Assembly: GCA_003022125.1 (NCBI GenBank)
Contig: PXQH01000055.1
Coordinates: 1-42,706, forward strand
Direction: 5' to 3'
DNA: 42,706 nt
From: Cyanobacteria bacterium QS_8_64_29
Lineage (GTDB): Bacteria; Cyanobacteriota; Cyanobacteriia; Cyanobacteriales; Rubidibacteraceae
Part shown: positions 26,530 to 30,059 of the stretch, in pieces
Position numbering within the stretch: the first letter of the stretch is position 1
Layout of the letters: every line of letters starts with the position of its first letter
The notes under the pieces: model-generated
Told to the model about the DNA's origin: nothing
The model's database searches: none
What the model saw: only the letters and a program-made list of their open reading frames with translations
Program-made: the position numbers and the translations under genes

Positions 26530-28098
26530 CTAGAACTGGAAGGTCGTCCGGATCGTGCCCAGGAATGCATTGTCATCGCTATTGCCAGCCGGGGCACCCA
26601 GCCAAACGAGGCCCGGCGTGATAGAGAGCCGCTCGGTGAGCTGGTAGCGGTAAAAGGCCTCGATGTGGAGCGCTGTATCGTCAACACCGCCCACGTAGGG
26701 CTCGGAGCCAACCACCAGGCCACCCAGATTGCCTTCACCCCCTAGATCAGGGAAGGCGGCACCGAGCGAGTAGTACCAGATTTCGGCGTCTTCCGGTGTT
26801 GACGCTGGCGTGCCGCGCTCTTCGGCCTTGGTGAATCCGCCGTAGGCATTAAGCGTAACGCTATCGCTCAGTTTGAGCGACCCTTCGATGCCGAACGAAT
26901 TGGTGATGGCATTGCCCCCTAAGAAGGCATTGACATTATCGGCAGTACGCGTTCCAGTATTGATGGTAAAGAGGGATCCATCATCAACGTAGGCATTGAC
27001 ATACGTCAATCCTAGTTTGAAGCGATCACCGAGGTAAGCGATCTGACCCAGCGCCGAATACCCACCGTTGAAGAGACCGTTGCCAGGTTGAGCGCTGAAT
27101 TGATCGGCAGTCCCCAGATAGCCTGCCGTCAGCTTCAGGTTCTCGGCCAGCTCGTAGTTGACACCGACACCACCGCCGAACTCATTAATTTTATAAATTG
27201 GGCTCGATTCTGCAAAGTTCGATATGGCGTTGTTGGCACCAGTAACGCCTTCGAGGTATGGACTTAGGGTCGGTGCGTAGTCCTGGTGCAGTGCGCCGGC
27301 AGCTGGCAAATAGACGCGACTGTTTTCAGTCGGCGAGAAGTAGTAAGCTAACCATCCCAATATGGCTTCATTATCAGTCGACCCCGTAAAGGTTGGAAGC
27401 CCCTGGTTGACACCGCTTGGGAATGGATTGTTAGCGCCTCCAAAATCAATGCGCGTAAAGAGTCGATCCGTACCAGTAAAGCTGCTCTCAAGCAGTAGGC
27501 GAACGCGATTCTGGAAAACTGTCTCGCCGTCGATGTCGGTACCTGCAATTGAGCCGTTGCTGAAAGTATCGGTCAGCGCAAAGACAACTTCCCCGGAAAG
27601 TTTGGTGGTGGTGGAAAACTGATTCTCCTCCAGCGTGGCAACGCGGCCTTCCAGATTGTCCACGCGCGTGCCCAGCGTGGCAAGCTCGGCCTCGAACTCC
27701 TCCACCAAGCGTTGCAGCGTTTGCAGGTCTTTCTCGCCCACTGTCTGCTGCTTTAGGGCCTGCAGGCAGGCGTTGAGGCCAGCGGCAAACTCGTAGCGCG
27801 TCAGCGCGCGGTTGCCACGGAAGCTCTGGTCCGGGTAGCCCTCGATGCAGCCATAGGTCTCGACCAAGTTGCGCAGGGCCTCAAACGCCCAGGCGTCCGG
27901 GGAGAAATCGCGCAGCTGCGAGACGCTGTTGACTTGACTCTGGGCGCGATCACCTTGGTTGCTGTAGGCCTCGATGCGATCGAGTGACTGCGTTGGGCTA
28001 GCGGGATCTGCCGACGCTGCTGTCCCTGTTAGCGCGGCCAACGCCGTTGCGGTTAGGGCTGTCGGCGCGAGGGCCAATGGCCTTTTAGGCGACTGCAT
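26530..28098 (-). CDS. SLH-domain OprB-type outer membrane porin
   Basis: 522 residues. An N-terminal signal (LTATALAALTGTAASA) is followed by one SLH domain (WAFEALRNLVETYGCIEGYP ... ALTRYEFAAGLNACL, about 70-110), a short coiled coil (LVEEFEAELATLGTRVDNLE), then a C-terminal beta-barrel of OprB type ending in the aromatic F (RTTFQF), the Omp assembly signal. The SLH domain ties the barrel to the periplasmic peptidoglycan-linked pyruvylated polymer. Members are the dominant cyanobacterial porins for small solutes and iron. Start ATG at 28098 with a GAGGAGG site. AT-content is slightly higher in the barrel than in neighbours. Confidence 0.92.
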   Translation of the reverse strand: MQSPKRPLALAPTALTATALAALTGTAASADPASPTQSLDRIEAYSNQGDRAQSQVNSVSQLRDFSPDAWAFEALRNLVETYGCIEGYPDQSFRGNRALTRYEFAAGLNACLQALKQQTVGEKDLQTLQRLVEEFEAELATLGTRVDNLEGRVATLEENQFSTTTKLSGEVVFALTDTFSNGSIAGTDIDGETVFQNRVRLLLESSFTGTDRLFTRIDFGGANNPFPSGVNQGLPTFTGSTDNEAILGWLAYYFSPTENSRVYLPAAGALHQDYAPTLSPYLEGVTGANNAISNFAESSPIYKINEFGGGVGVNYELAENLKLTAGYLGTADQFSAQPGNGLFNGGYSALGQIAYLGDRFKLGLTYVNAYVDDGSLFTINTGTRTADNVNAFLGGNAITNSFGIEGSLKLSDSVTLNAYGGFTKAEERGTPASTPEDAEIWYYSLGAAFPDLGGEGNLGGLVVGSEPYVGGVDDTALHIEAFYRYQLTERLSITPGLVWLGAPAGNSDDNAFLGTIRTTFQF

Positions 28099-28234
28099 GT
28101 TTCCTCCTCACCCAAACAAATAAGGTTGGGGGCCATTGTCGGGCAGCCGCTCGCGCCAAACAGTGTTCTAGGTTACGTTTGAGGGCATCGATGGAGGAAG
28201 GTTGCAGCAGTGGCGGCAGCAGATAGGCTTAAAA

Positions 28235-28283: not shown

Positions 28284-28568
28284 CTACTGAATGCTGGAGA
28301 TGGTTTTGGCCATGTTGAAGTCGTTGTCGGTCAAACCGCCCACGCCGTGGCTAGTCAGCTCGATGGTGACTTTGTTGTAGGAAACGGCCAAATCCGGATG
28401 GTGCCCTGCCGACTCGGCTGGTTCGACGAGCTTGTTAACAAAGTTGACCGCTTCAACAAAGTTGCCCAGCTCGCGCGTGCACTGAATTTTATTGCCCGCT
28501 CGCTGCCACTCGTCGGACAGCTCGCTCATGCGCTGTTGAATTTGCGACTCATCTAGCAGTTGCACCAT
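28284..28568 (-). CDS. phhB: Pterin-4a-carbinolamine dehydratase
   Basis: A 94-residue protein. ESAGHHPDLAVSYNKVTIEL carries the active-site histidine pair H-H-P and SHGVGGLTDNDFNMAK the third histidine and C-terminal helix, the family signature. It dehydrates 4a-hydroxy-tetrahydropterins. In organisms with no phenylalanine hydroxylase, PCD-like proteins have been tied to moco or other roles. Start ATG at 28568; no strong ribosome site. It lies 67 bases downstream of a large terminator hairpin (28635-28688) preceded by a folded RNA element, so expression may depend on readthrough. Its own promoter is not obvious. Confidence 0.92.
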   Translation of the reverse strand: MVQLLDESQIQQRMSELSDEWQRAGNKIQCTRELGNFVEAVNFVNKLVEPAESAGHHPDLAVSYNKVTIELTSHGVGGLTDNDFNMAKTISSIQ

Positions 28569-28634
28569 GGCAGTCCGTCCTTATCGCGATTGGCAGCTGC
28601 TGCTAGTCTAGAATAACGCCGCGATCACACCCGT

Positions 28635-28688
28635 AAAAAACTATCCGCCCCTGCGAGGAGCGCCTTAAAAGCGCTATGGCAGGGGCGG
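28635..28688 (-). terminator. Large intrinsic terminator between psbD and phhB
   Basis: On the minus strand CCGCCCCTGC (28688-28679) pairs perfectly with GCAGGGGCGG (28654-28645); inside is a second stem AGCGC/GCGCT. It is followed by ATAG and TTTTTT (28640-28635). Strong U run only on the minus strand, so a minus-strand transcript separate from psbD ends here, or phhB transcription is attenuated here. Confidence 0.85.
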
Positions 28689-28694
28689 TCTAGC

Positions 28695-28827
28695 GGGTCT
28701 GTCTGAATTGAACCTGACTGCCGGGAGGAACCCGTTACAGCCAGCTTACCTGCCTCCGCAGAGGCAAACCACTGGCTGTTAGCGAACAGCCCCGGCGCAC
28801 AGCCGGCTAACCTCAACCAGCAGACCC
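28695..28827 (-). ncRNA. Candidate structured RNA / leader upstream of phhB
   Basis: The minus-strand RNA can fold into a closed multibranch form. A long closing helix joins 28827-28813 with 28711-28695 (7 bp, 3 bp and about 5 bp, with one-base bulges, including a G-U pair that favours this strand). Inside are three arms: GTTAGC with GCTAAC (28811-28806 with 28783-28778); AGCCAG with CTGGCT (28777-28772 with 28744-28739) capped by the 6-bp hairpin TGCCTC-TGCG-GAGGCA; and CGGG-TTCCT-CCCG (28734-28722). Six bases later comes the terminator at 28688. This is the layout of a terminator-type riboswitch or a stable sRNA. I recognise no known class; 6S, tmRNA, RNase P, SRP, TPP and folate motifs were not matched. 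Confidence 0.4.
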
Positions 28828-28850
28828 ATGCGTTTACTACTACTTGCCAT
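28779..28850 (-). CDS. Possible 23-residue leader peptide
   Basis: ATG at 28850 is preceded at eight bases by AGGAGGTGAT, the longest Shine-Dalgarno match in the window. The frame reads MASSSKRMGLLVEVSRLCAG and three more residues, then TAA at 28781-28779. It overlaps the 5' strand of the closing helix of the candidate RNA, so translation would compete with folding. No family known to me. It may be a regulatory leader peptide or an accident of an RNA sequence. Confidence 0.35.
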   Translation of the reverse strand: MASSSKRMGLLVEVSRLCAGAVR

Positions 28851-28949
28851 TGGCATCACCTCCTGGATCGCCTGTGCGGCTCATTCGAGCTGTTGATGTA
28901 CTTAGCGCAGCTTAACACAGTTGCCTGCAAGCTGCGCCACCGCGCAAAA

Positions 28950-28997: not shown

Positions 28998-30059
28998 CTA
29001 CAGCGCGTTACCGCGCGGTAGAACTTCTTCAGGGAATTGGAAGTTCTGGTGAGGCTGGTCTTTGGGCGCCAGCCAGGCGCGCAGGCCCTCGTTGAGCAGG
29101 ATGTTTTTGGTGTAGAAGGTCTCGAACTCGGGATCTTCAGCAGCCTGGATTTCCTGCGAGACGAAATCGTAGGCCCGCAAGTTGACGCCCAGCCCTACGA
29201 TGCCAACGCTGGCCATCCACAGGCCCGTGACGGGGACAAACAGCATGAAGAAGTGCAGCCAGCGCTTGTTCGAGAACGCGATCCCAAAGATCTGGGACCA
29301 GAAGCGGTTGGCCGTCACCATGCTGTAGGTTTCCTCGCCCTGGGTGGGGTCGAAGCCGCGGAAGGTCGTCGAGTTCTGCTTGTCGTCTTCAAACAGGGTG
29401 TTCTCCACCGTAGCGCCGTGAATGGCGCACAGCAGAGCCCCACCAAGGACGCCGGCGACGCCCATCATGTGGAAGGGATTGAGCGTCCAGTTGTGGAAGC
29501 CCTGGAAGAACAAGATGAAGCGGAAGATGCCGGCAACCCCAAAACTCGGGGCAAAGAACCAGCTGGATTGGCCCAGCGGGTACATCAAAAAGACGCTGAC
29601 AAAGACCGCAATGGGGGCACTAAAGGCGATCGCGTTGTAGGGGCGAACCCCGACCAGACGCGAAATCTCAAACTGGCGCAGCATGAACCCAATCAATGCC
29701 AGGGCGCCATGGAGGGCGGTAAACGTCCACAGCCCGCCAATCTGACACCAGCGGGCAAAATCCCATTGGGCTTCAGGGCCCCACAGGAACAGCAGGGAGT
29801 GAGCCATGCTGTCTGGCGGTGTGGACACGGCGACAGTGAGGAAGTTGGCGCCCTCGAGGTATGAGCTCGCCAACCCGTGGGTGTACCACGACGTCACGAA
29901 GGTGGTGCCGGTAAGCCAGGCACCGATAGCTAGGTAGGCACAAGGAAACAGAAGCAGGCCGGACCAACCGACAAAGACGAACCGGTCGCGTTTGAGCCAG
30001 TCGTCTAGGACCTCAAACCAGCCTCGCTGTTGTTGCGCGCTTCCTACTGCGATAGTCAT
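28998..30059 (-). CDS. psbD: Photosystem II D2 protein, stand-alone copy
   Basis: 353 residues with five membrane spans. Key residues are present: His117 (accessory chlorophyll), Tyr160 (TyrD), His189, His197 (P680), His214 and His269 (non-heme iron/QA site), and the C-terminus VLPRGNAL. psbC does not follow (it normally overlaps psbD), so this is the monocistronic second-copy type (psbDII), often high-light induced. Several positions differ from the near-invariant D2: EAQWDFARW where EAQGDFTRW is usual, SMAHS for SMGHS, ALALIGF for AFGLIGF, and one extra residue in the D-E loop. Start ATG at 30059 with a GGGAG site. Confidence 0.95.

Follow-up and report, generated by a model that had tools for sequence, protein, structure and literature searches.

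A widely conserved small RNA gene between psbD and phhB of a cyanobacterium, with a covarying rod and a predicted short reading frame

Layout of the RNA gene

The minus strand between psbD and phhB, from about 28905 to 28635 of the window (the whole stretch of 42,706 nt from Cyanobacteria bacterium QS_8_64_29 that was analysed here), is an independent small RNA gene of about 270 nt, in which an extended -10 promoter is followed by a long rod and a terminator. We put at about four in five the probability that its product, as judged from sequence comparison, would be at once a structured RNA and a tiny translated mRNA, and a member of the ncl0160 family. The RNA would be transcribed from its own promoter up to its own conserved terminator, and a Shine-Dalgarno (SD) sequence would lead ribosomes into an ORF of 17-25 codons, the second part of which doubles as the rod's 5' strand. 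Comparison across cyanobacterial genomes shows the rod pairing, the conserved frame, the extended terminator and the wide distribution of the gene in single copy.

The gene is flanked 5' by psbD (28998-30059; TIGR01152, E 4.3e-225 in an NCBIfam search) and 3' by phhB, which encodes a pterin-4a-carbinolamine dehydratase (28284-28568; PF01329, E 1.3e-28, and NF002017, in Pfam and NCBIfam searches). A SomB-type OprB/SLH iron uptake porin (26530-28098; NF033921, E 2.5e-136, and PF04966) follows 3' of phhB, and all three genes lie on the minus strand. An earlier sequence-only reading had located psbD, psbD's own terminator (28950) and phhB correctly, and had proposed a structured element with a terminator at 28635-28864. 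The parts it described are present, but the true start lies further 5', with the promoter at about 28917 and the SD at 28864; the RNA structure stands, while the SD and a 23-codon ORF inside the element (28850-28779) had been overlooked.

Of 167 copies, 123 have the promoter element TGnTAnnnT (in the window TGTTAAGCT, 28909-28917) between 90 and 30 nt 5' of the SD, with a cluster at -80 to -70; shuffled sequences gave 15.9. We infer that transcription proceeds from this extended -10 promoter, and the motif by itself would place the transcript start at about 28902. The 5' untranslated region carries the block CCGCACAGG (28871-28879), a deviant form of the family consensus CCGYTTAGG; a block of this type is found at most 35 nt 5' of the SD in 125 of 167 copies, and no pairing partner was identified for it.

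At the other end, six bases 3' of the closing helix of the rod, the terminator hairpin consists of CCGCCCCTGC/GCAGGGGCGG with 10 bp and AGCGC/GCGCT with 5 bp, followed by TTTTTT at 28640-28635, exactly as first read. Conserved bases on either side of the stem, CTA-GA on the 5' side and A-TAG on the 3' side, form an extension of the hairpin, so that the whole terminator occupies 28635-28693. The extension varies among species in compensatory forms: CUA/UAG, CGA/UCG (the picocyanobacterial form), CCA/UGG, CAA/UUG and UGA/UCA, in a parsing that left 15 copies unparsed and mis-assigned a number of single copies. The three base pairs below the GA/A internal loop therefore appear to be under selection.

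The rod and its covariation

The rod is closed by a helix in which GGGTCTGCTGGTTGA (28827-28813) pairs with TCAATTCAGACAGACCC (28711-28695), a G-U pair and a bulge included; this helix had been proposed at the same positions. The minus strand of 28630-28870 folds with -111.3 kcal/mol (z = -3.64), and an equally good fold arose in one of 200 dinucleotide shuffles. Comparative evidence comes from an alignment of 54 diverse sequences, aligned without regard to structure, which is also the basis of our covariance model. RNAalifold and pair counts resolve the rod on this alignment into four helices (columns 50-54/241-245, 57-65/224-232, 70-76/216-223 and 81-86/210-215), with 96.6% of the cells paired and changes on both sides in 12 pairs. 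Cells with a double change number 102, against 28.7 after shuffling, where the observed value was never reached, and 3-15 in slid controls; these counts are not probabilities, because related sequences are counted repeatedly. The covariation across species on which the proposed structure depended is thus strong.

Most of the changes fall in helix 2, and in helix 3 seven sequences have U-A in place of C-G at the pair 71-222. The outermost pairing GGGUC/GACCC shows no covariation in the alignment; where it varies, it does so by G-U pairs or, in a few cases, by mismatches. In the window the 5' strand spans 28791-28827, overlaps codons 8-20 of the ORF and covaries with the 3' strand at 28695-28725. 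Between the strands lies an apical arm (28736-28778), predicted here as a stable hairpin but so variable in length and sequence among species that it cannot be aligned over the family. The middle part of the molecule is, by covariation, a continuation of the rod. The local arm CCGGC/GCCGG (columns 71-75/81-85), which the window forms in its minimum-energy fold, was rejected: it is kept less well than the long-range pairing, and changes in column 74 break it in four sequences yet keep the rod.

These data bear on the simplest view of a transcript with a promoter, an SD, an ORF and a terminator, namely that it is nothing more than a small mRNA coding for a short peptide, with a structure that is incidental. 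All of these parts are indeed present, but the double compensatory changes in the rod, several of which alter the amino acid encoded by the ORF, and the conservation of the untranslated 3' strand make this exceedingly improbable. Codon changes between L and Q in the ORF, for example, are matched on the opposite strand (CUGAUUG/CAAUCAG versus CAGAUUG/CAAUCUG).

The reading frame and its start codon

A perfect SD, AGGAGGTGA (28856-28864), invariant or nearly so in the alignment, precedes the ATG of the small ORF (28779-28850; 23 codons and TAA), which encodes MASSSKRMGLLVEVSRLCAGAVR and ends inside the rod region; start, frame and stop are conserved. In a first set of 123 loci, all but one ORF had 22-25 codons; most of these loci had been selected by a pattern that demanded an ATG, so that only frame and stop, not the ATG, are independent evidence. 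The frame is best seen in the distance between ATG and GGGTC in 165 distinct copies of the main clade: 23 nt in 150, 26 in 10, 32 in four and 20 in one, identical modulo 3 in all 165. Selection of the loci does not explain this constancy, because the pattern permitted any spacing of 8-34 nt. The opposite, 3' strand of the rod, in contrast, measures 14, 15, 16, 17, 18, 20 or 22 nt between its own landmarks and covers all three residues modulo 3.

The ORF stops after 17-25 codons in 164 of the 165 copies (23-25 aa in nearly all), with TAA in 96, TAG in 68 and TGA in one, and the peptide consensus of the main clade is MxxSSKxMG(H/L)(L/Q)(V/I)xxxRLCAGAVL; no Pfam or NCBIfam family matches the ORF peptide. 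The sole exception in frame is copy L018, where a 1-nt deletion breaks the ORF and the rest of the RNA is kept: either a sequencing error or a natural ORF mutant. With this one exception, the comparison argues for selection on the frame, and we infer that ribosomes translate the ORF.

Nucleotide constraint maintains part of the ORF, since the codons of AGTAGTAAA are conserved at their third positions too. The nucleotide conservation of AGGAGGTGATGCCCATG and AGTAGTAAA, and rod pairing that overrides amino-acid identity (L to Q), would also suit a purely non-coding structured RNA, with an ORF that is there by chance and an SD-like sequence that binds 16S rRNA or another partner. A frame that persists in 165 of 165 copies through indels of 3 and 9 nt, a start at SD spacing and a stop codon, all in two separate clades, speak against this, and we regard it as very unlikely.

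If the RNA is both structured and translated, the two properties may be coupled. In most species the nascent 5' end would hide the start codon in a hairpin GCCCAUG/CAUGGGU, which competes with the rod for GGGU. Once the 3' half has been made, GGGUC would be drawn into the rod and the hairpin would open, so that translation would await the complete RNA and would in turn melt the rod. ViennaRNA calculations are consistent with such a switch: the start codon is unpaired at a mean of 0.04 in the isolated 5' prefix versus 0.60 in the full core for the 54 aligned sequences, and at 0.23 in the 5' part versus 0.47 in the full core for 33 picocyanobacterial copies, with the accessibility of the SD unchanged between 5' part and full core. 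The hairpin sequence is highly conserved in a set of copies chosen in part by a pattern that includes the same segment; where CCC deviates, C has become U in 11 of 13 cases and can still pair as G-U. We nevertheless consider the switch less likely than not, because the hairpin shows neither covariation nor a double change and is mismatched both in copy L173 and in the window, where the start codon of the prefix is already 0.94 unpaired and no switch is predicted. More doubtful still is the complete scheme of a self-timed translation switch, in which folding of the complete RNA would free the start codon, translation would melt the rod, and a nearly phylum-wide RNA would act in trans on photosynthesis- or envelope-related genes.

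Distribution, neighbours and identity

DNA searches found the gene once in the host genome and in 37 of 40 relatives, in about 30-32 families of the order, with 68-87% identity across these relatives; conservation, on which the earlier proposal hinged, is thus well borne out. The matches begin almost always at query position 97, which is 28864 in the window. An exact pattern occurred in at least 114 contigs of a named genome collection, every listed one of them cyanobacterial, with no copies in viral contigs. The covariance model recovered 99 of 288 good genomes across the phylum, one copy each, and, counted from the listing, 76 of 83 genomes of the window's own order. Many contigs of L021-L100 end a few hundred bases 5' of the RNA, as if near-identical copies of psbD had broken the assemblies. 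Because many relatives' contigs end there, in or near psbD, some of the missed genomes may represent assembly gaps. The host genome itself measures 2.22 Mb at an estimated completeness of 99.95%, against 2.8-4.8 Mb in relatives of the same family; a genome reduction is possible.

Three marginal picocyanobacterial matches of the model (E about 1e-3 to 1e-2) retain the SD, the ORF start, GGGTC/GACCC and the terminator extension, and on these features they look like real relatives. A BLAST search with one of them recovered the gene, in a shortened form, from 72 of 95 good picocyanobacterial genomes, its homology being judged on anatomy and on the same downstream porin in four loci. In the copies examined the SD is followed, always at the same distance, by ATG or GTG, and the ORF runs for 17 codons to a TGA, its peptide being M/V-S-x-S-C-x-x-Q-G-L-L-I-A-E-N-A-G. 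Four genomes from other families of the class (L169-L172) likewise have an ORF that stops after 17 codons. At about 30 picocyanobacterial loci (L165-L167, L185-L214) the segment CAGGGTCTGCTGATCGCGGAGAACGCCGGCTGA hardly varies, even at third codon positions, a degree of conservation that would seem to exceed the need of pairing or peptide alone; the picocyanobacterial alignment as a whole varies too little to be informative about pairing. One further match (G109, locus L168; E 5e-4) was discarded, since on reading its SD precedes an unrelated ORF.

The genomic context varies among lineages. Among loci whose flank is long enough, 106 of 132 have a tblastn match to psbD 5' of the RNA in the same orientation, although the search may sometimes have caught the paralogue psbA. 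A conservative search (E 1e-6), which misses some, places phhB 3' of the RNA in 86 of 166. Where the flank reaches 2.2 kb or more, a porin follows within 3 kb in 54 of 77 loci, often with phhB in between. Other genes, named by eye from their translations, are nadC-like and cobyrinate-synthase-like (among others) on the 5' side, and cysK-like, photolyase-like or convergent, such as ychF in Pseudanabaena, on the 3' side. Ancestrally, the RNA gene probably stood 3' of psbD and 5' of the porin.

In many relatives (L166, L171, L174, L176, L179, L182, L183, L025 and L126) GGTGTGAGGA or a near form stands just 5' of the porin ATG, and the window has a diverged copy, GGGTGAGGAGG, at 28098-28114 of the minus strand. 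The motif is complementary to CACUCCUCACACC, the unpaired motif of the sRNA Yfr1 (PMC4734099), and the porin is therefore a likely predicted target of Yfr1.

The sequence-only reading had offered two roles for the element: a riboswitch-like leader that controls phhB, or a free-standing RNA with its own terminator. The first is not supported for phhB, which is present in only about half of the loci, and is made unlikely by neighbours that vary among lineages and are sometimes convergent. A broader version, a riboswitch or translation-coupled attenuator for phhB and/or the porin, in which a ribosome on the ORF alters the fold and lets polymerase pass the terminator, draws on the attenuator layout of a structured element before an intrinsic terminator, which the RNA shares with transcription-attenuating riboswitches, and on the porin, which where found is always 3' on the same strand and keeps this order in some picocyanobacteria (L166, L191, L194, L212). 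A constant downstream gene on the same strand, however, is missing: the next gene is phhB, the porin, cysK, photolyase-like or convergent. Different genes come next in the close relatives L003-L005, L010 and L012, and also in L038, L042, L173 and L175, while the RNA stays, and in Pseudanabaena (L024, L058, L177) the RNA is retained beside a convergent gene; nor was an antiterminator alternative seen. Since a leader acting in cis is not expected to persist next to convergent genes, independent action of the RNA is most likely, and we consider the leader unlikely. The second role has fared well: the RNA is single copy, has its own promoter and terminator, and is kept when both neighbours change.

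Searches of Rfam with the window and five relatives matched no family, gathering and permissive thresholds giving chance matches only; tRNA and tmRNA genes were absent from the element, and a literature search with a conserved DNA string returned nothing. The earlier suggestion of a new class is therefore right as regards Rfam, but the RNA fits the published description of ncl0160 (PMC4734099). That RNA was first seen in Synechocystis PCC 6803, was reported as a conserved sRNA in 2011 and 2016, and has homologues in 83 of 89 cyanobacteria, a 23-25 aa peptide with an RBS always present, ATG (few GTG) starts, and TAA, TAG and TGA stops in 47, 34 and 2 cases (Brenes-Alvarez et al. 2016, PMC4734099). 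Our RNA likewise occurs in most photosynthetic cyanobacteria as one intergenic unit of less than 350 nt from transcription start (here a promoter motif only) to Rho-independent terminator, with a conserved ORF of 23-25 aa (23 in the window), an RBS, ATG or GTG and the same three stops. Because peptide length, stop proportions and spread agree, identity with ncl0160, matched by published description rather than by sequence, is very likely, and the RNA is then not a new discovery as such. The 17-aa form found here belongs to the marine Prochlorococcus/Synechococcus lineage, which that survey excluded (PMC4734099).

Other known RNAs resemble it less. 6S RNA (RF00013) has a similar length and a long imperfect rod, but here an ORF fills one strand, and no RF00013 covariance match was obtained in the Rfam searches; the marine 6S (Yfr7) adjoins purK (PMC1242208). 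Yfr6 of Prochlorococcus, a strongly structured RNA of about 240 nt with a possible 33 aa frame and a Northern signal only in MED4 and SS120 (Axmann et al. 2005, PMC1242208), is of similar length and also has a possible short frame. It was rejected as the marine homologue, since locus and peptide length differ and nothing supports homology.

A structured RNA with a covarying rod and an ORF selected for its frame, L018 excepted, recalls the dual-function regulatory RNAs. RNAIII/hld and SgrS/SgrT, for example, are structured small RNAs with a very short ORF; the present RNA differs in that one of the two strands of its main conserved helix is the ORF itself.

The main text of the ncl0160 survey reports no covariation-supported structure, synteny or function (PMC4734099). 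New here are the covariation-backed rod, the test of the frame against the opposite strand, the terminator extension, the picocyanobacterial form, the synteny and the possible start-codon switch. The gene, present in single copy and absent from Rfam and from protein family libraries, belongs to the small RNAs that are widely conserved in oxygenic cyanobacteria. With an alignment, a structure model and the frame of the ORF at hand, direct tests are feasible in Synechocystis or Nostoc, and mutations that would separate the function of the peptide from that of the RNA are specified.
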